From a virus, in the IMG/VR virus record IMGVR_UViG_3300005515_000031, positions 1-33,362 of that record: a stretch of 33,362 nt of DNA; one strand, written 5' to 3'. Positions 5,720 through 31,694 of the stretch are shown in pieces (within the stretch, counting starts at the first letter, position 1; every line of letters starts with the position of its first letter). The position numbers and the translations under genes are program-made. The notes under the pieces are model-generated. The model had not been told where the DNA came from and did not search any database. It was given only the letters and a program-made list of their open reading frames with translations.

Positions 5720-6204
5720 AGAAGCCCGACGAGCTGCGCCGGGTACTGCTGGCCCATGTGCCGGCGTTGAAAGCGAACCCCGATCGCCTTAGCCTGTTTA
5801 TCGACCAGGGCCGCATTCAGTCGCGCCCCGGCGCGCTGGCGTTCGTCTATGGCTATCGTCTCAACCTGGTAGTCCAGGACTATGCCGGCGAGGTCGATGA
5901 CCTGATCGTGCCGGTGCTCGCCTGGATCGGCGAGGCGCAGCCGGATCTGCTGCAGCGCGCTCCGGGGGAGCCCTTCACCTTCGCGGCCGAGCTGATCGAC
6001 GAGAACTCGGCGGACGTGTCGATCTACATCGACCTGACCGAGGACGTAATCGTCCATATCAACCCCGAGGGCGGCTTCTCCACCGAGCACCTGGCCGAAC
6101 CCGGGGACACCGACATATTCCCCGATGTCGGATGCTCCCTGCTGCGCCAGCTCAAAGCGAATGGCGAGATCATCGCCGAGTCCCAAACCCCGCCCGGCCA
6201 GTGA
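5716..6204 (+). CDS. R: Tail completion protein, P2 GpR-like
   Basis: 162 aa. It aligns with P2 GpR: PDELRRVLLAHVPALKANPDRLSLFIDQGRI at the start (P2: PDSLRRALTDAV...LKTNPDMLRIFVDNGSI), then VQDYAGEVDDLIVPVLAWI..QPDLL and GEPFTFAAELID. GTG start overlapping the Rz1 stop (GTGA). With S it finishes the head-proximal end of the tail. Confidence 0.93.
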   Translation: MKKPDELRRVLLAHVPALKANPDRLSLFIDQGRIQSRPGALAFVYGYRLNLVVQDYAGEVDDLIVPVLAWIGEAQPDLLQRAPGEPFTFAAELIDENSADVSIYIDLTEDVIVHINPEGGFSTEHLAEPGDTDIFPDVGCSLLRQLKANGEIIAESQTPPGQ

Positions 6205-6875
6205 GCGACGATCTGGCCGAGGTCGAGCGCATCGCCGGCGCGCTGCTCCGCCAGATCGGGCCGAGCGAGCGCCGCCGGATCCTGCGCGCCATGGCGCGCG
6301 ACCTGCAGAAGTCGCAGTCCGCGCGTATCGGCCGCCAGCAGAGCCCGGACGGCGCCGCGTACACGCCCCGCCGCCAGAAGAAGCCGCCCCGCCCCGGCAA
6401 CTATGCCGTGAAGTTCCTCTATCCGCGCGGCGCACCGGAGCCGCGCCTGGTTCTCATGAAAAGCTGGGTCCATGAGGGCAATCTGCTTACCGGCTTCGAC
6501 GTCGAGGCTGGCGGCATCCGCAGCTTCTTCTGGGACAAGGTCGATCGCTGGCTACCGCTCGAGCCCGGCGAGCAGAACAAGGGCGCGGGTAAGTTCCGGC
6601 GGGCGGGCAGCATCCGCCGGCAGGCCATGTTCCGAAAGCTGCGCAGTGGCCGCAATCTGCGCGCCGGCGCCACTGACCGGCAGATGTGGGTGGGGTTCAG
6701 TGGCCGTGTCTCGCAGATCGCCAGCGTCCACCAGGATGGCGGCATGGATCGCCCCGCCGCCAGCGCGAAACCTATGCGCTACCCGCAACGTCAGCTGCTC
6801 GGCGACACCGCAGCCGACCGCGACAGGATGCTCGACATGCTGCTCGCGCACATCGTCTCGACGTCCGCGCTCTGA
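6201..6875 (+). CDS. S: Tail completion / virion morphogenesis protein, P2 GpS-like
   Basis: 224 aa from a GTG start that overlaps the R stop (GTGA). The N-terminus SDDLAEVERIAGALLRQIGPSERRRILRAMARDLQKSQSARIGRQ resembles P2 GpS, where basic helices precede the conserved PDG..YTPR block (here SPDGAAYTPRRQKK). It is longer than P2 S (150 aa), because of a middle region with FWDKVDRW and a basic stretch at about residues 130-170. The frame is open upstream to 6132, but that part overlaps R and has no family similarity. Confidence 0.88.
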   Translation: MSDDLAEVERIAGALLRQIGPSERRRILRAMARDLQKSQSARIGRQQSPDGAAYTPRRQKKPPRPGNYAVKFLYPRGAPEPRLVLMKSWVHEGNLLTGFDVEAGGIRSFFWDKVDRWLPLEPGEQNKGAGKFRRAGSIRRQAMFRKLRSGRNLRAGATDRQMWVGFSGRVSQIASVHQDGGMDRPAASAKPMRYPQRQLLGDTAADRDRMLDMLLAHIVSTSAL

Positions 6876-7103
6876 AACTAGCCCCTTCAAACAGACAGGC
6901 AGCAAACGCCCAATTGCTGATATTAGAGACCGACCTAGCAGGCTCAGCTATTGGGCCGGTAGCGGACAAGCAGGCTTTGGCGAACGGACCGTGCAAGCAG
7001 AACATTACACACACCCGATTCCCCCAGAAGTCGATTATCCTCTAGCGGAAACAATCCACCGCTTGCAGGATAGGCAGGGTAAGCCGATCGACAGGAGAGA
7101 ACG
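6876..7103 (+). other. Non-coding junction between S and the inserted defence gene
   Basis: This 228-bp stretch has no credible gene. Base composition falls from the GC-rich phage background toward the AT-richer insert. It ends with a strong AGGAG site (7093-7097) six bases before the TTG start of the SIR2 gene. I see no convincing sigma-70 promoter, no copy of the late dyad and no terminator. The left breakpoint of the moron insertion probably lies here. Confidence 0.5.
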
Positions 7104-9527
7104 TTGGATTTCGAAGAGGCAGCCCGTCGCGTCCATCTCGGCAGATCAATCGCGTTCTTCGGCGCCGGGTTCTCGCCTGATGCCACAAACCTTGAAGGCG
7201 AGGGTATGGCTTCTGCCTCAAAGCTTGCTGCATTTCTTTCAGATAAGCTGAGCGAGGCGGAGCTTCTACCTCTTGATCTCGCATCACAAGAATACGTCCG
7301 GAAAGGTTTAATTCCAGACCTAAGACAGATAATCGTGCAGTCATTTACGACTAAACATGTGGCACCTTATCAAAGTAAATTGGCGCAGCTGCCGTGGCAA
7401 CGAGTTTACACGACTAACTATGATAATATCGTGGAATTTGCGCGACATGCTGCGGGTCAGTCGTCAGATACCGCAACGTCACTTGATCGTCCGGCAGATT
7501 TTTCGGGACGATTTTCGGTCGTCCATCTTCACGGTTCTGTAACAAATGTTTCTAAGGAAAATTGGGATGATGCAACCGTACTGACAAACGAGCAATATGC
7601 ATCCGATATTTTAAGAGAAAGTGGCTGGCTTGAAACATTCCGTAACGATGTAAACTATGCGGACGCAATTTTCTTTTTCGGATATTCGATGGCGGATTTG
7701 GATATCGCCCGCCTCATGTACGAGAATCCAACCCTAGCCGAAAAAACCTTCATCGTTGCGGGAAAGTCCCCAAGTCGAGGCACGGAAATTCGTACACAGG
7801 GCTACGGCAGTCTCGTGAAACTAGACGTAGTAGATGCGGCTGAGGCTTTCCCTGCTACTGATGATCCAAGCGCCGCCAAGCCAGCTCCCTATCTCGTCAA
7901 TCTCCAAGAGATTTCCACGAGCGCAGCTGATACGAGACCATCTCGCGACGACATTGTGAACTTTCTAGTGAAAGGGGATCTCGACTTCCGATACGTCGCG
8001 CGAGATCTAGCAAACGGCACTCATGATTATTTTATATCGCGGGATGCAGTTAATGTGAGGGCAGCGAAACTTGGTTCATCCCCGGAGAGATTACTGCTGC
8101 ACTCACGATTAGGAGGTGGGAAAACCTGCGCCGTGGCAGAAATAAGTCATTATCTCTTGACATCGGGATGGCGTGTACTGTCGTTCAACGGTAACACTGA
8201 AGGCTTCGAATACGACATTGATTTCCTTTCCAGCCTCGGATCGGACGGGCAACGAAGGACTGCCATCATATTCGAGTCTTGCTTCTCTTTTTCCTCGACT
8301 ATCAAAGATTTGATTGAACGGTACCCACTTTTATCCATAATCTGTACCAGCCGCAGCGCGGTGCTTCAAACTCGGATTGGGTCAGTCGATGATTCATTGG
8401 GAGACGCCTTTGAAGTAGTCGACCTTGATGAGATAAGTGACCAAGAGGCCGAAGATCTTGATGACGTCCTCCACGCCAATGGGATGTGGGGGGAGCGCCA
8501 GGGGCATAGCCAGGCAAAACGTCTGGAATATATCAGAAAGAAAGCGCGCGGAGACTTGCCGACAGTATTAGTTGATGTTTGCCGTTCATCAGATATATTT
8601 GCCCGCGTTCAGCAAGAACTGAAATTGATTGAGCAGCTATCTCGCGATTTACGAAAATCCCTTGTTACTACGCTCTGCTTAACATGTGCGGGATCGCGAC
8701 TTAACCTAAACCAGATTTGCGACGTCGTGGAGGCCGATCTATTTAAATACGGCAAGTATCAATCCAATCCAGCCCTCAAGGAATTTATCGATTTTGAACG
8801 TGGCAGAGTCGCCGCGCGGTCATCGACCTTCGCTCAAGCCGTTCTTAAAGACATCGTTCCTGACCACCTTATAATCGATATCCTCCCCAGCGTGATCGCG
8901 CGACTGGACCGGTTGGGGTCGGAACATGACGCGTTCATCGATCCCTTGAAGGGAATGATGCGATTTGGATTCATTGAGTCGATATTCAATGATGAAGGCA
9001 AAGAAGCGAAATTGGTTTCGTTCTACGAAGCTGTTCGGGCGACAGGGGTCGTTGCAGGCAATCCACAATTTTGGCTGCAGTATGCCATCGCGTGCATGTC
9101 GTTCGGCGATTACCCGGCAGCCTCGGATCACTTCAAGTCTGCGTTTGGATTGGCTGGAAGCAAAGGGGGTTACGATCCTTACCAGATTGAAAACCAATAT
9201 GCGAAATTCTTATTGGAAAGCCGATCAAAAACGACGCTCTGGAACGATCAATACGAGGCATTTAGCGAAGCTCATGATATCGTAAGCCGGCAAATGAACA
9301 ATTTTCATGAGGGCTATTACCCATACCGCGTTGCACGACTTTATCTTACCTTTACAGAGGTGAATGAGAAGATATTTACTCACGATCAGCGGATCCGGAT
9401 TTCTAATTGGTGTAGTCAACTCATTAAGCTCGGTAACAACGCTCCCAAATCCGTTCGACGCTCCAATTATTGGCGGCAGGGCATGGCTGCGCTTCAGCAA
9501 ACGATCGAGTTTTTGAAGGAAGAGTGA
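7104..9527 (+). CDS. SIR2 / P-loop NTPase / TPR protein, probable anti-phage defence (moron)
   Basis: An 807-aa protein starting at TTG after AGGAG. Residues 10-240 form a SIR2-like domain: GAGFS (20-24), TTNYDN (103-108), HLHGS with candidate catalytic His143, and GYSMADLDI (193-201). Defence SIR2 domains of this class degrade NAD+ on sensing infection. Residues 325-430 look like a P-loop NTPase: SRLGGGKT (334-341, first Gly of Walker A replaced by Ser), AIIFES as Walker B (387-392), CTSR (414-417). The C-terminal third is helical with a TPR-like motif at about 653-685, a plausible sensor. The SIR2-NTPase-repeat order recalls SIR2-STAND (Avs5-like) systems; the exact family is not assigned. 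It is AT-richer with different codon use, splits the late genes between S and J, and is not needed for the P2 virion. Confidence 0.85.
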   Translation: MDFEEAARRVHLGRSIAFFGAGFSPDATNLEGEGMASASKLAAFLSDKLSEAELLPLDLASQEYVRKGLIPDLRQIIVQSFTTKHVAPYQSKLAQLPWQRVYTTNYDNIVEFARHAAGQSSDTATSLDRPADFSGRFSVVHLHGSVTNVSKENWDDATVLTNEQYASDILRESGWLETFRNDVNYADAIFFFGYSMADLDIARLMYENPTLAEKTFIVAGKSPSRGTEIRTQGYGSLVKLDVVDAAEAFPATDDPSAAKPAPYLVNLQEISTSAADTRPSRDDIVNFLVKGDLDFRYVARDLANGTHDYFISRDAVNVRAAKLGSSPERLLLHSRLGGGKTCAVAEISHYLLTSGWRVLSFNGNTEGFEYDIDFLSSLGSDGQRRTAIIFESCFSFSSTIKDLIERYPLLSIICTSRSAVLQTRIGSVDDSLGDAFEVVDLDEISDQEAEDLDDVLHANGMWGERQGHSQAKRLEYIRKKARGDLPTVLVDVCRSSDIFARVQQELKLIEQLSRDLRKSLVTTLCLTCAGSRLNLNQICDVVEADLFKYGKYQSNPALKEFIDFERGRVAARSSTFAQAVLKDIVPDHLIIDILPSVIARLDRLGSEHDAFIDPLKGMMRFGFIESIFNDEGKEAKLVSFYEAVRATGVVAGNPQFWLQYAIACMSFGDYPAASDHFKSAFGLAGSKGGYDPYQIENQYAKFLLESRSKTTLWNDQYEAFSEAHDIVSRQMNNFHEGYYPYRVARLYLTFTEVNEKIFTHDQRIRISNWCSQLIKLGNNAPKSVRRSNYWRQGMAALQQTIEFLKEE

Positions 9528-9591
9528 TCCCGCGTCGGTGGCCGTGCCTTGCCCCAGCGACGATGCCCAAAGCAGTCATCCGGTAGAACGC

Positions 9592-9618
9592 CCTAGTAGA
9601 ATCCCACTCTACAAGCCC
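9592..9618 (+). promoter_or_regulatory. Late-promoter dyad B, upstream of J
   Basis: GTAGA (9596-9600)-N7-TCTAC (9608-9612) with CCTA before and AAGCCC after. It matches the dyad before V (14010-14036) at 26 of 27 positions. A partial look-alike, GGTAGAACGCCC, sits just upstream at about 9582-9593. The dyad centre (9604) is 56 bp before the J ATG. It restarts late transcription after the inserted SIR2 gene if it is an Ogr-type site, which is inference. Confidence 0.65.
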
Positions 9619-9659
9619 GCGCGCTAGCGGCCCAGCCCGTGCCGCACAGAAGTGGCGGC

Positions 9660-10577
9660 ATGGTCGACACCTCCGCTACCTTCACCGCCGTCGATCTCTC
9701 GCGCTTGCCGGCGCCGAGCGTGATCGAAGAGCTGAGCTACGAGCAAATTCTCGCCGGATGGCTAGCGGATTTCGAGGCCTTGTTCGGCCCGGAAGATCCC
9801 GAGGCGTTCGACGCCCTGGTCGAATCCGATCCTGCCATGCGGGTCCTGCAGGTCGGCGCCTACCGCGAGTTCCTGATGCGCGGGCGGGTCAACGACGCGG
9901 CCAAGGCGGTGATGCCGGCATACGCGGTCGGCGCGGATCTGGACAACCTTGCCGCCCTCATGAGCGTCACGCGCCTGATAATCGATGCGGGCGACCCGGA
10001 AAACGGCGTCCCGCCAACCTACGAGAGCGACACCGATTTGCGTCGGCGCCTGGTGCTAGCCCCCGAGGGCTATTCAGTGGCCGGGCCGGAAGGCGCCTAC
10101 ATCTACCACGCGCTCTCCACCTCGGGCGAAGTGCTCGACGCCTCGGCAATCAGCCCGGCACCCGGCGAAGTCCTGGTCACTGTACTGGCCCGCAGTGGCG
10201 ACGGCACGCCCTCGGCGGAGCTGCTCGAGCTGGTCAATCTGCACGTCTCGGACGAAACGCGGCGGCCGCTTACCGACGCGGTCACCGTCCAGGCGGCTAC
10301 GATCGTTCCCTACGCGATCACCGCCTCGATCACGACCTATGCCGGCCCCGATGGATCGATTGTGCTCGCGGAGGCGATCCGAGGCGCCGAGGCCTATCGC
10401 GAAAAGCAGCACCGGCTCGGCCTGGACGTAACCAGGTCCGGCATTTTCCGCGCCCTTCACTGTGAGGGCGTGCAGAACGTCGTCCTCACCTCGCCGGTGG
10501 CCGACATCGTCATAGATCGCGAAAGCGCGAGCTGGTGCACCGCGATCAACATCACTCATGCGGGCGTCGGCGAGTAA
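9660..10577 (+). CDS. J: Baseplate assembly protein, P2 GpJ-like
   Basis: Baseplate wedge component of the contractile tail. The 305-aa product from ATG 9660 begins MVDTSATFTAVDLSRLPAP, and the family blocks follow: YREFLMRGRVNDAAKAVMPAYAVGADLDNLAAL (P2: LRQRINEAAKANMLAYATGSDLDNLGA), GYSVAGPEGAYIYHALS, DASAISPAPGEVLVTVLARSGDGTPS. A GTG at 9639 is in frame upstream. Neither start has a good Shine-Dalgarno, and the dyad lies close, so a very short leader or leaderless mRNA is possible. The stop overlaps the I start (TAATG). Confidence 0.92.
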   Translation: MVDTSATFTAVDLSRLPAPSVIEELSYEQILAGWLADFEALFGPEDPEAFDALVESDPAMRVLQVGAYREFLMRGRVNDAAKAVMPAYAVGADLDNLAALMSVTRLIIDAGDPENGVPPTYESDTDLRRRLVLAPEGYSVAGPEGAYIYHALSTSGEVLDASAISPAPGEVLVTVLARSGDGTPSAELLELVNLHVSDETRRPLTDAVTVQAATIVPYAITASITTYAGPDGSIVLAEAIRGAEAYREKQHRLGLDVTRSGIFRALHCEGVQNVVLTSPVADIVIDRESASWCTAINITHAGVGE

Positions 10578-11125
10578 TGGCCGCCCTGCTCCCACCGAAT
10601 TCCACCCCGCTCGAGCGCGCGTTGGAAAGGGTGATGGCCCGCATGATGGCCATGCCGGTGCCGCTGCGCGACCTGGTCTCGCCGGACAATTGCCCCCTGC
10701 CCCTGCTGCCCTATCTCGCCTGGGCACTTTCCATCGACAGCTGGTCGAGCGACTGGCCCGAGGCCGTCAAGCGCTCGCGCGTGCGCCGCGCGATGGAGAT
10801 CCAGCGCCGCAAGGGCACTTCTGAATCGGTTCGCGCTGTCGTAGAGAGCTTCGGCGGCGCCGTCGCTTTGCGTGAATGGTGGCAGACCGAGCCTCGCGGC
10901 GCGCCGCACACTTTCGACCTCGCCATCACCCTCTCGGGAGAGGGTGGCACCGAAGCCAGCGCGGCCTTTGCCGACGCGGTCATCGCCGAGGTTCGCCGCA
11001 CCAAGCCGGTGCGCTCTCACTTCACCTACACCCAGGGCGTCAACCTCGCGCGGACGCTTGGCGTCGCCGGCGCCGTTCGCCCCGCCACCTTCGCCCGCCT
11101 TCAGCTCGAAGCCCCTGCGGCCTGA
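10577..11125 (+). CDS. I: Tail protein, P2 GpI-like
   Basis: 182 aa. It matches P2 GpI: LLPPNSTPLERALERV, VPLRDLVSPDNCPLPLLPYLAWALSIDSWSSDWPEAVKRS (P2: VPLRQLWNPDTCPVNLLPYLAWAFSVDRWDEGWPEATKR), RKGTSESVRAVVESFG, LREWWQTEP. It is a baseplate-peripheral protein that connects J and the tail fibre. One-base overlap with J, 12-bp gap to the fibre gene. Confidence 0.93.
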   Translation: MAALLPPNSTPLERALERVMARMMAMPVPLRDLVSPDNCPLPLLPYLAWALSIDSWSSDWPEAVKRSRVRRAMEIQRRKGTSESVRAVVESFGGAVALREWWQTEPRGAPHTFDLAITLSGEGGTEASAAFADAVIAEVRRTKPVRSHFTYTQGVNLARTLGVAGAVRPATFARLQLEAPAA

Positions 11126-11137
11126 CCGGAGACCAGC

Positions 11138-13711
11138 ATGCCGTCGATCCAGTTCATCGTCACCGACGCGGGCCGCGCCGCCCTGGTCAACGCCCAGCAC
11201 AATGGCACCAACGCGGTGACCATTGCCCAGGTCGGCGTGTCCGGCACGCCGATCGTCGCCACCACCGCGACCGCTAACCTTCCCGGCGAGGTGAAGCGCA
11301 TCGCCACGATTAGCGGCGGCGCCGTGGCGGCCGACACCATGCACGTCACCGTGCGCGACGAGAGCGCCGACGTCTTCACTGTGCGGTCGCTCGCCTTCTA
11401 CCTGTCGGACGGAACCCTGTTCGGCGCCTATGGGCAGGCCGGGGTGATCGTCGAGAAATCCGCGCAGTCGATGCTGCTTCTCGCGATCGACGTGATCTTC
11501 GCGGACATCGGCGCCGTGTTGCTCCAGTTCGGTGACGCCAACTTCATCAACCCACCGGCGACTACGGATACCGCCGGCGTCATCAAGATCGCCACCGATG
11601 CCGAAGCCGCCGCCATGGCGACAGCGATCAAGGCACTGAGCCCGCGTGGCATGGCCTTGGCATTCACCGCCGCGAACGTGCTGGCGCGGCTCCTCACCGT
11701 GGATGGCGCGGGCTCGGGCCTCGACGCGGATCTGCTCGATGGCCAAGAGGGCAGCTACTACACGAACATCACCGCCCGCCTGGGCTACACGCCGCTGAAC
11801 GCCACCACCTTTACCGGCGCCGAGATCTTGAACCGCGTGGTCACGGTCGACGGCTCTGGCTCGGGGCTCGACGCCGATCTGCTAGACGGGCGCCACGCGA
11901 GCGAGTTCGCGTTGCTCACCGGCGCCAATTTCACCGGGGCGGTTTCGCTCCTCAACGGTGGCACGCTTTCGACGCTCGGCGCCGGCGGGGGCTGCGAGTT
12001 CGCCTGGCTTGGCGCAACGTCGCGCATCCTCTCCTACGATCGCGTCGCCACCGCCTATCGGCCGCTGCAGATCGCGGGGTCCACGATCGAGCTAGCGCCC
12101 CAGACCAGCGTCAGCGTGACGGGATCGTTGGGCATCAGCGGCGCCCTGACGCGTGCCGGAAACACCGTGTGGGATGCCGCAAATGACGGCGCCGGCTCCG
12201 GCATGGACGCCGATCTGCTCGACGGCCGACAGGCGGCGGAATTCGCCCTTCTCACCGGGGCGGGCTTCACCGGCAACATCGGCATCGGAGTTAGCCCAGC
12301 GTCGCCCTACGGCCGATCGATCCAGCTCGCGCAGGGGCCGGGAACATCGGTGCCGATGATCCTGCACCAGTCGATCAACACCAATGACGAACGGCTGTAC
12401 ATCCTGAACAACCTGCAGCCGCCAAACGGCGCCTATGGGGGAACCTTCACCTACAACAAGGCGAACGCCTCGGGCTCGGCTTACCTGAGCTTCGCCGGCA
12501 CCCACGTCTTCTATTCTGCGGCACCTGGCGCGGCGGGCGCCCAGGCCACGCTGGTGCAGACCGGACGTATCGACGCGGTTGGCAACCACTATGCAGCTGC
12601 GGACTTTTTCGCGAGCGGCGGCAACCTGGTCTGGCACGTCGGCAATGACGGGGCCGGTTCGGGCATGGATGCCGATCTTTTGGACGGCAGACAGGCCGCT
12701 GAGTTTGCCTTGCTCTCCGGCGCGGCATTCACTGGGCCGGTCCAAAGCGCCGGCGGTCTTCGCGCCTTCCCACTCGCGAATCCGACCGCGCCGACCGATG
12801 CGACGCAAATTCAGGTCGGCGAGATCTCGCAGAACGCGGCCTATCGCCTGAGCGTAGGATACTGGCTCAACGGCGCCCAATGGTCTGGCGTCATCAACGC
12901 CCTCGCCAACAACGTTGCAGCACCGCTCAACATCCAGCCCTCTGGCGGCGCTGCTGTGTTCGGCGGCGCCGCATCCATTGCAGGTGCCCTTACCCGTGCC
13001 GGCTCCACCGTGTGGGACGCGGCCAATGACGGCTCCGGCTCGGGTATGGACGCGGATCTGCTCGACGGCCTCCACGCCAGCGCGTTCGCGCAGCTGGCCG
13101 GCGCCGGCTTCACCGGCCCTGTGCAGGCCCAGACGCCCAACGCAGGGACCAGCGGCGGCTTCCGCCTGCTCGGCAACGCCACCTCCGGGTTCGGATACCT
13201 TCAGGTCACCGACCAGAGCGCCGCCACGCAATGGGGCTATCTCCGCTTCAATTCGGCGGGCCAGATGTTCTGGTCGGGAACGCTGTCCCGCAACGGCAAC
13301 CAGGTGTGGGACGCCGCGAACGACGGCTCAGGGTCGGGGATGGATGCTGACCTGCTCGACGGCCTGCACGCCAGCGCGTTTGCCCTGCTCACCGACGCCA
13401 CCCGCGCCGGCTCCAATGCCAATGGCTATTGGGAGAAGCGTCCGAACGGCGTGATCGAGCAATGGGGAACCCTGGCCGGCACCTATGCCGAGGGGCAGAT
13501 CGTCATTACCTTCCCGATCCAGTTCACCGACGTGAACTCGATCGTGATCTCGGCAAACGCGGTGAACACCGCCGGCAGCGACAAGTACGACATTTCGATC
13601 CAGCGCGTCTCGCGAACCGTCGATGGGTGCGTCGTGTTCGCCCAATACTCCGCCGCCGCGTCGAGCATCAACCAGATCAACGGCGTCGATTGGCGCGCTG
13701 TCGGTCGCTGA
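11138..13711 (+). CDS. H: Tail fibre protein, P2 GpH-like N-terminus, repeat shaft and receptor-tip domain
   Basis: The 857-aa receptor-binding fibre has an N-terminal region (about 1-150) typical of P2-type fibres (TDAGRAALVNAQHNGTNAVTIAQVGVSG, VRSLAFYLSDGTLFGAYGQ). The shaft holds six copies of a motif around GSG-(L/M)-DADLLDG, mostly followed by a Phe-Ala-x-Leu...Phe-Thr-Gly strand. The last about 90 residues (GYWEKRPNGVIEQWG to INGVDWRAVGR) resemble the gp53-like C-terminal fibre domain that forms the trimeric tip. Position directly after I fits P2. No separate chaperone gene of the GpG type is obvious next to it; the small gene that follows is unlike GpG. Confidence 0.9.
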   Translation: MPSIQFIVTDAGRAALVNAQHNGTNAVTIAQVGVSGTPIVATTATANLPGEVKRIATISGGAVAADTMHVTVRDESADVFTVRSLAFYLSDGTLFGAYGQAGVIVEKSAQSMLLLAIDVIFADIGAVLLQFGDANFINPPATTDTAGVIKIATDAEAAAMATAIKALSPRGMALAFTAANVLARLLTVDGAGSGLDADLLDGQEGSYYTNITARLGYTPLNATTFTGAEILNRVVTVDGSGSGLDADLLDGRHASEFALLTGANFTGAVSLLNGGTLSTLGAGGGCEFAWLGATSRILSYDRVATAYRPLQIAGSTIELAPQTSVSVTGSLGISGALTRAGNTVWDAANDGAGSGMDADLLDGRQAAEFALLTGAGFTGNIGIGVSPASPYGRSIQLAQGPGTSVPMILHQSINTNDERLYILNNLQPPNGAYGGTFTYNKANASGSAYLSFAGTHVFYSAAPGAAGAQATLVQTGRIDAVGNHYAAADFFASGGNLVWHVGNDGAGSGMDADLLDGRQAAEFALLSGAAFTGPVQSAGGLRAFPLANPTAPTDATQIQVGEISQNAAYRLSVGYWLNGAQWSGVINALANNVAAPLNIQPSGGAAVFGGAASIAGALTRAGSTVWDAANDGSGSGMDADLLDGLHASAFAQLAGAGFTGPVQAQTPNAGTSGGFRLLGNATSGFGYLQVTDQSAATQWGYLRFNSAGQMFWSGTLSRNGNQVWDAANDGSGSGMDADLLDGLHASAFALLTDATRAGSNANGYWEKRPNGVIEQWGTLAGTYAEGQIVITFPIQFTDVNSIVISANAVNTAGSDKYDISIQRVSRTVDGCVVFAQYSAAASSINQINGVDWRAVGR
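11711..13363 (+). repeat. Six in-frame repeats coding GSG(L/M)DADLLDG in the fibre gene
   Basis: Repeat cores of 33 bp lie at 11711-11743, 11858-11890, 12194-12226, 12656-12688, 13037-13069 and 13331-13363. Copies 3-6 also share the upstream AA(C/T)GACGG(C/G) stretch (DANDG). The protein motif is nearly constant, the DNA less so (different synonymous codons), which points to selection on the protein with some recombination. Such repeats favour expansion, contraction or exchange of fibre segments. Confidence 0.85.
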
Positions 13712-14009: not shown

Positions 14010-14036
14010 CCTAGTAGAACCCCACTCTACAAGCCC
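14010..14036 (+). promoter_or_regulatory. Late-promoter dyad C, upstream of V
   Basis: GTAGA (14014-14018)-N7-TCTAC (14026-14030), with the same outer bases as the copy before J. It starts only six bases after the previous stop, in a 63-bp gap before V, the first gene of a transcription unit in P2. The arrangement fits a late promoter, not a terminator: no GC-rich stem and no T-run, and a related copy lies between divergent genes at 1-16. Confidence 0.65.
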
Positions 14037-30690: not shown

Positions 30691-31694
30691 TGCCGATCTC
30701 GCCAGAGAACCGCGCCCGCTATCCCGCCGATTGGCCGGTGATCAGCCTGCAGATCCGCAAGGACCGCGCCGGCGACCGCTGCGAGTGCCAGGGCGAATGC
30801 GGCTTCGAGCACGAAGGCCGCTGCCCCGAGGTGAACGGCCAGGCCCATAGCGTCACCAGCTCTACCGTGGTGCTCACCGTCGCGCACCTGGACGACACGC
30901 CCGAGAACTGCGAGCCCGAGAACCTGCGCGCAATGTGCCAGCGCTGCCACCTTGGTTACGATCGCGGCATCCACGCGCACAATATGCGGCTGACCATGTC
31001 GCGCCGGCGCATCGAGGCCGCCGCCAACCATGAGCTTTTCGCAGGCGACTTGGGCACCCCGACTCGTCCCGAGCGGCCCGAGGTGGCACCGCCGCCGACA
31101 CCCGCATCGCCGGCGTGGCCTTTCGGCGAGCTGCAGCCGGGCAAATATGGCGTGATCTACGCGGACCCGCCCTGGCGCTTCTCCAACTTCTCCGCGAACG
31201 GCGAGGCCAAGAACCCGGTCGCGCACTATCCGTGCATGAAGATCGAGGATCTCGCGCGCCTGCCCGTCTCGCGGCTCGCCGCGCCAGACTGCGCGCTGAT
31301 CATGTGGGCAACAGCGCCGCTGCTCGACCGCGCGATCGAGCTGCTCAAGGAGTGGGGCTTCACCTTCAAAAGCGCCGGCGCCTGGGCGAAACAGACATCG
31401 ACCGGCTCGGCCTGGGCATTTGGCACCGGCTATGTCTTCCGCTCGGCCGCCGAGTTCTACCTGGTCGGTACGATCGGCAAGCCGCGCGTGCTGTCGCGCT
31501 CGGTTCGCAACCTGGTGGTGGCGCCGACGCGCGAGCACAGCCGCAAGCCCGATCAAATGCTCGCCGATGTCGAGGCGCTCTATGGCGGCCCCTATGCCGA
31601 GCTGTTCGCCCGCCAGCGCCGCCCAGGCTGGGATAGCTGGGGGAATGACGTGGACCGGTTCCCGGAAGGGGAGGTGCAATGCCCGACCAGTTGA
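30690..31694 (+). CDS. HNH-like domain fused to MT-A70 adenine methyltransferase
   Basis: 334 aa from ATG 30690 (GTG 30687 also possible; GGGGAG precedes both). Residues 1-100 form an HNH-like zinc-binding domain: Cys31, Cys33, Cys37, Cys45, VAHLDDTPENCEPENLRAMCQRCH (His66, Cys83, Cys86, His87). This unit is often a separate small phage protein. A Pro-rich linker (120-145) leads to an MT-A70 N6-adenine methyltransferase with YADPPWRF (DPPW 159-162) and the C-terminal block HSRKPDQMLADVEALYGGPYAELFARQRRPGWDSWGND. It could methylate phage DNA to evade restriction; the fused HNH may guide or cut DNA. Confidence 0.88.
   Translation: MPISPENRARYPADWPVISLQIRKDRAGDRCECQGECGFEHEGRCPEVNGQAHSVTSSTVVLTVAHLDDTPENCEPENLRAMCQRCHLGYDRGIHAHNMRLTMSRRRIEAAANHELFAGDLGTPTRPERPEVAPPPTPASPAWPFGELQPGKYGVIYADPPWRFSNFSANGEAKNPVAHYPCMKIEDLARLPVSRLAAPDCALIMWATAPLLDRAIELLKEWGFTFKSAGAWAKQTSTGSAWAFGTGYVFRSAAEFYLVGTIGKPRVLSRSVRNLVVAPTREHSRKPDQMLADVEALYGGPYAELFARQRRPGWDSWGNDVDRFPEGEVQCPTS

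Follow-up and report, generated by a model that had tools for sequence, protein, structure and literature searches.

The locus between S and J

The window, which is the whole stretch of DNA analysed here, is a virus record of 33,362 bases. It holds a P2-type gene set comprising the O scaffold protease, N capsid, M terminase, L, lysozyme, R, S, J, I, tail fibre, V and W genes, with an integrase at the end of the record. The phage lineage of the window has V and W after the tail fibre block and not before J. An uninterrupted open reading frame of 807 codons lies between S and J, beginning with a TTG codon that is preceded by a Shine-Dalgarno-like sequence (Table 1). The GC content of this gene is 0.48-0.50, compared to 0.66-0.69 on both flanks, confirming the observation of an earlier sequence-only reading that the gene is AT-richer than its neighbours. 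No sigma-70-like promoter was found in 6876-7103, which is a weak pointer if the host is alphaproteobacterial. A possible host group is suggested by related prophages on Sphingomonadaceae chromosomes, with up to 67% identity in J, and by the closest relative of the 807-residue protein, which is from Sphingomonas. Based on these features and on the comparisons described below, the gene is a probable single-gene, horizontally acquired defence cargo of a P2-like phage.

Table 1. Positions in the window of the cargo gene, the parts of its product and the flanking elements
Feature	Position	Strand	Evidence
Gene S (tail completion), left border; true start maybe downstream of 6132	6132..6875	+	phrog_26 E 5e-30
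Shine-Dalgarno-like AGGAGAG, ending 4 nt 5' of TTG	7093..7099	+	Sequence
avs5-like gene (SIR2-STAND-helical repeat), 807 aa	7104..9527	+	ORF, domain, homology and fold searches
SIR2 effector domain, ~residues 1-255	7104..7868	+	PF13289 E 4e-12; fold match to SIR2 NADases
GAGFS, NAD-binding motif, residues 20-24	7161..7175	+	Motif inspection and alignment
TTNYD motif with Asn105 and Asp107, residues 103-107	7410..7424	+	N105 and D107 invariant in 78 homologues
Catalytic His143-Gly144 (HG form)	7530..7535	+	Homologue alignment
STAND-type P-loop NTPase domain, ~residues 290-460	7971..8483	+	AF2 model; nSTAND3/nSTAND_NTPase5 matches of homologues
Walker A SRLGGGKT, residues 334-341	8103..8126	+	G339 and K340 invariant in 78 homologues
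C-terminal helical repeat region, putative sensor, ~residues 631-807	8994..9524	+	AF2 pLDDT mostly >90
Trp657-x-Gln659, Avs5 repeat-domain hallmark	9072..9080	+	Invariant in 78 homologues
Conserved dyad CTAGTAGA-N7-TCTACAAG before J, right cargo border	9593..9615	+	Comparison of relatives
Gene J (baseplate); ATG 9660 likelier start	9639..10577	+	phrog_4226/phrog_6
Second dyad copy, before V	14011..14033	+	Motif scan

Domain architecture of the encoded protein

The AF2 model of the 807-residue protein has a mean pLDDT of 90.3 and a pTM of 0.80 and shows a three-part layout. The N-terminal part carries a significant Pfam match to SIR2_2 (PF13289) and superposes on SIR2 NADases with an rmsd of 2.5-3.4 A over ~235 residues. 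With GAGFS, TTNYD and H143-G144 all in place, the SIR2 domain does have the intact NAD-site motifs that had been read from the sequence. The central NTPase domain is below significance for Pfam nSTAND3 in the window protein itself, and nSTAND3/nSTAND_NTPase5 matches were obtained in all five of the homologues that were scanned. Its Walker A motif, with Lys340, lies where the sequence-only reading had placed it, although the description of this motif as degenerate singles out nothing special, as a serine is common in the family: the first position is Ser rather than Gly in 51 of 78 homologues, a pattern that includes the window protein. Residues 574 to 806 of the model are all-helical and the C terminus consists of helical repeats, which agrees with the proposed repeat sensor; its TPR-like nature is no more than hinted at by Pfam, where the TPR_14 match (E 0.21) falls under the cut-off.

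Identification as a divergent member of Avs5

A sequence search against solved structures matched the window protein to 9JAP over residues 3-775 (E 2e-68), and a profile built from the 78 homologues matched the same entry with an E value of 2e-223. This entry is titled "Helical structure of EfAvs5(SIR2-STAND)" and was also matched by fold (Foldseek, VIA-align), with a Z score of 29.4 over 773 aligned residues. The other near full-length bacterial fold match was 9NC9, "Helical assembly of AVAST5 filament" (Z 21.4, 671 residues). The full-length superposition on 9JAP has an rmsd of 21.8 A, a large value indicating that the order and folds of the domains agree and that their arrangement does not. 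Human SAMD9 was also among the fold matches, and a resemblance to SAMD9 has been reported for PaAvs5 (PMC12931631). A search of the viral structure library with the window protein gave generic ATPase matches only.

The published hallmarks of Avs5 are GAGxS, TTNxD, H/N-G, Walker A, and a Trp with an invariant Gln in the repeat domain (PMC12931631). The window protein has a SIR2 domain with these motifs, a Walker A NTPase, helical repeats with the Trp/Gln pair and full-length similarity to EfAvs5; these features make it a new, divergent member of Avs5 (AVAST type 5, SIR2-STAND). This is the outcome of the structure prediction and HMM searches against Avs, DSR and SIR2 families that the sequence-only reading had put forward as a check, and it replaces the suggestion made there of a new SIR2-NTPase family. 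A family separate from Avs5 would be in keeping with an identity of only ~24% to the EfAvs5-like protein, with the lack of a match to any curated Avs5 model and with the lack of relatives among 50,697 phage records. However, the homology to EfAvs5 extends over the full length in sequence, profile and fold, the hallmark residues are held in common, and identity between the Avs5 clades studied so far is itself only 18-21% (PMC12931631), so that ~24% falls within the range of the family. A separate family is thus very unlikely. As for the curated models, neither PADLOC nor NCBIfam placed an Avs5 label on the window protein. PADLOC-DB 2.0.0 also leaves two EfAvs5-like proteins unflagged as Avs5 (L004 and the E. 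coli plasmid protein L003, which is nearly identical to 9JAP); since L003 is missed as well, the absent label reflects a gap in the library, and surveys based on PADLOC-DB 2.0.0 may overlook the EfAvs5-like clade.

The SIR2 part was also compared with other NAD-directed effectors. DSR2, Thoeris ThsA and KomC share the SIR2 fold and NAD-site motifs with the window protein, but their sequence homology to it ends at the SIR2 domain. Thoeris and Kongming require partner genes. Reading the protein as a DSR2- or ThsA-like SIR2 effector, and not as a STAND receptor, would draw on PADLOC matches of the SIR2 part to ThsA (E 4e-10) and Dsr2 (E 8e-5) and on the superposition of the SIR2 folds. These sequence matches end at about residue 210, whereas the remainder of the chain matches EfAvs5, and the NCBIfam Dsr2 model, which stands for an architecture of ~1000 residues or longer, scores 20.2 bits against a cut-off of 1400, covering residues 5-145 only. 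This makes an effector of the DSR2 or ThsA kind extremely unlikely. Thoeris ThsA itself was rejected as an identity: its match ends at about residue 202 of the 807 in the protein and 202 of the 478 in the model, and so falls short of the whole ThsA chain with its SIR2 part and C-terminal ligand domain.

Within Avs5, the closest characterized counterpart is EfAvs5 of Escherichia fergusonii (PDB 9JAP), which shares the three-part layout, the SIR2 and P-loop residues and the Trp-x-Gln motif. The two proteins differ in the form of the catalytic pair, HG here and NG in 9JAP and L003, and in setting, an enterobacterial plasmid for EfAvs5 and a P2-like phage with alphaproteobacterial relatives for the window protein. 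PaAvs5-1, -2 and -3 of Pseudomonas aeruginosa, likened here by their published motifs, have the same PF13289 SIR2 domain, STAND NTPase and C-terminal repeats, along with GAGxS, TTNxD and the repeat-domain Trp/Gln (PMC12931631). W657 and Q659 correspond to W675 and Q677 of PaAvs5-1, in which the Walker A motif is GPAGSGKT as opposed to SRLGGGKT (PMC12931631).

Conservation and spread of Avs5 relatives

A scan of GTDB genomes yielded 158 relatives; 80 of these were retained, and 78 sequences were aligned. Across the alignment N105, D107, G144, G193, D198, G339, K340, W657 and Q659 are invariant. The catalytic position is Asn in 65 of the 78 sequences, His in 12 and Tyr in one, placing the His of the window protein in the minority. 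The kept relatives come from Pseudomonadota, Bacteroidota, Bacillota, Acidobacteriota, Verrucomicrobiota, Chloroflexota and other phyla; this spread is patchy, on plasmids (some of them conjugative) and islands, showing that the family moves among many types of element.

The closest relative, at 50% identity, is a gene of Sphingomonas sp. BN140010 (L087). It lies on an island, where its neighbours encode an integrase, a primase-type AAA protein, T5orf172, HEPN-like and PLD proteins and an Eco57I-type methylase, and no P2-like structural genes were found near it. Around the 80 cellular Avs5 relatives, tail genes were found in one case only, L157, where a Pseudomonas fulva relative (9001-11298) lies ~3.4 kb from the P2-like genes D and T. 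This relative may also be carried by a prophage, though not at the same site. In IMG/VR the only match was an identical contig (L002), meaning that the same gene was not seen in other phages.

Cargo at the S-J interval in related phages

The survey of related phages covered 79 further J-bearing contigs, and both S and J were found in 49 of them, the contig of the window itself excluded. The junction is empty in 17 of these 49 IMG/VR relatives (~60-90 bp) and loaded in the other 32 (at least 0.5 kb), with interval lengths taken from the ends of tblastn matches and therefore over-long in a few contigs with partial S matches. Lineages with the classical order S-V-W-J carry the insert between S and V, while in the lineage of the window it lies between S and J. 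The same was seen on Sphingomonadaceae chromosomes, where the site is empty in L189 and L206 and loaded in L192, L193 and L204, with a GC content of 0.52-0.54 in L193 and L204 compared to 0.67-0.73 around it. The comparison of related prophages proposed in the sequence-only reading thus finds the interval either empty (~60-110 bp across all relatives) or holding unrelated genes, as expected of a variable site.

Several of the genes at this site are of defence types, namely Dazbog DzbA/DzbB (L011), an AbiU-type protein (L059), PDC-S19 (L050), a type III-A retron-like PRTase with RT (L078) and Septu PtuA/PtuB (L082), in agreement with the earlier expectation that P2-type prophages carry defence cargo at variable spots. 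The S-V cargo of L070 (6418-7923) encodes an AAA/STAND-like domain with a C-terminal TIR domain; in P4 satellites, the opposite TIR-NLR order has been described. Much of the site cargo had no match in any library used, and no Pfam or PADLOC match was obtained for L017 6543-7685, L020 8080-8907, L071 6893-7924, L061 6830-7891, L192 1230-2315 and L193 979-1797, all at the same site. Such unmatched genes are candidates for undescribed defence genes or other lysogen genes. Cargo occurs on either strand, which argues for its independent expression. The DNA around the cargo was also searched for flanking direct repeats or shared sequences as possible traces of an insertion mechanism, and nothing convincing emerged.

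The orf30 gene of P2 is flanked by S and V, and foreign genes are common in P2-like phages at orf30, Z/fun and the TO region (PMC3091744). The S-J site occupies the same place in the late region as orf30 and, like it, holds variable, horizontally acquired genes (PMC3091744); it differs in that the next gene is J, since V and W come only after the tail fibre genes. The proposal of a cargo hotspot at the S/J junction holds with respect to the variable content in relatives and does not hold as a new locus. Systematic defence surveys have covered the gpA-gpQ locus and the fun locus (PMC9122126, PMC9519451). With orf30 already described and these surveys directed at other loci, the hotspot is known in kind, and the defence content found at the orf30-type site is a modest extension of it. 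As both the family and the site were already known, the window offers a good but ordinary example.

Alternatively, the gene could be degenerate or inactive, a passenger that at present does nothing. Turnover of cargo at this site is rapid, and the S-J interval of one Sphingomonadaceae chromosome (L195) holds mainly a transposase, as might be expected for such a passenger. However, the frame is open over all 807 codons with a good ribosome site, the predicted fold is confident, and the catalytic, P-loop and hallmark residues are all retained, making loss of function extremely unlikely.

A conserved dyad at the right edge of the site

In the empty sites of L013, L018 and L021, the stop codon of S is followed almost directly by a TTGTRRA-N-TYYACAAG dyad, and in loaded sites the same dyad is found just 5' of J. 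The two copies in the window each match 15 of 16 positions, whereas chance alone would give the window about one site with at least 13 matches. In P2, an activator dyad precedes the late promoters, and by analogy the conserved dyad is probably a late-promoter activator site of the J and V operons. Bounded by the stop codon of S and by the dyad, the cargo apparently lies between two operons, where it would not disturb late control. The sequence-only reading had described the gene as splitting S from J just before a late dyad. The dyad is real and conserved, and what had been taken as a split within an operon is more probably an operon boundary.

Proposed mode of action

Taken together, these results make it very probable that the P2-like phage carries Avs5 as cargo at the locus corresponding to P2 orf30, and this protein probably defends by phage-triggered assembly and NAD+ hydrolysis. 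The NADase activity, the activation by filament formation and the defence itself are predicted from homologues. The immunity of PaAvs5 requires intact SIR2, ATPase and C-terminal repeats (PMC12931631), and the trigger of PaAvs5-1 is JADA of jumbo phages (PMC12931631). EfAvs5 is described as broadly protective against phages (PMC12931631) and Avs5 SIR2 activity as dependent on filament assembly (PMC12700824). By analogy, the Avs5-like protein would rest in a closed state until its C-terminal helical repeats detect a product of an incoming phage, either a protein or a structure, upon which the STAND NTPase would open in an NTP-dependent manner. The molecules would then assemble, possibly into a filament as in EfAvs5, and the SIR2 domains would hydrolyse NAD+, so that infection may be halted and the lysogen population survive along with the prophage. 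A receptor encoded by a prophage would have to be blind to the late proteins of its own phage, or not be expressed together with them.

A further idea, which we put forward tentatively and regard as possible rather than likely, is that the fixed edges may allow defence cargo to be swapped through recombination in the conserved flanks, and that the minority HG form may belong to an Avs5 that differs from the known ones in its trigger and is blind to its own phage. If true, P2-like phages of many lineages would swap cargo without disturbing late gene control.

With these findings, a broad receptor family known mainly from work on Escherichia and Pseudomonas members gains a phage-borne Avs5, and the HG and NG forms, together with the 50% identical Sphingomonas sister, provide a useful pair for comparison. 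The orf30-type site can likewise be viewed as a defence cargo slot with clear edges across several P2-like lineages.

Other open frames in the window

Two further regions of the window were noted. A gene with a PAPS-reductase domain adjoins an MT-A70 methyltransferase gene at 29276-31694, before the integrase, and the two are possibly a second cargo or a DNA modification pair. In addition, Pfam gave no match for an open frame of 523 codons on the minus strand (27218-28789), possibly a shadow frame of GC-rich coding DNA.
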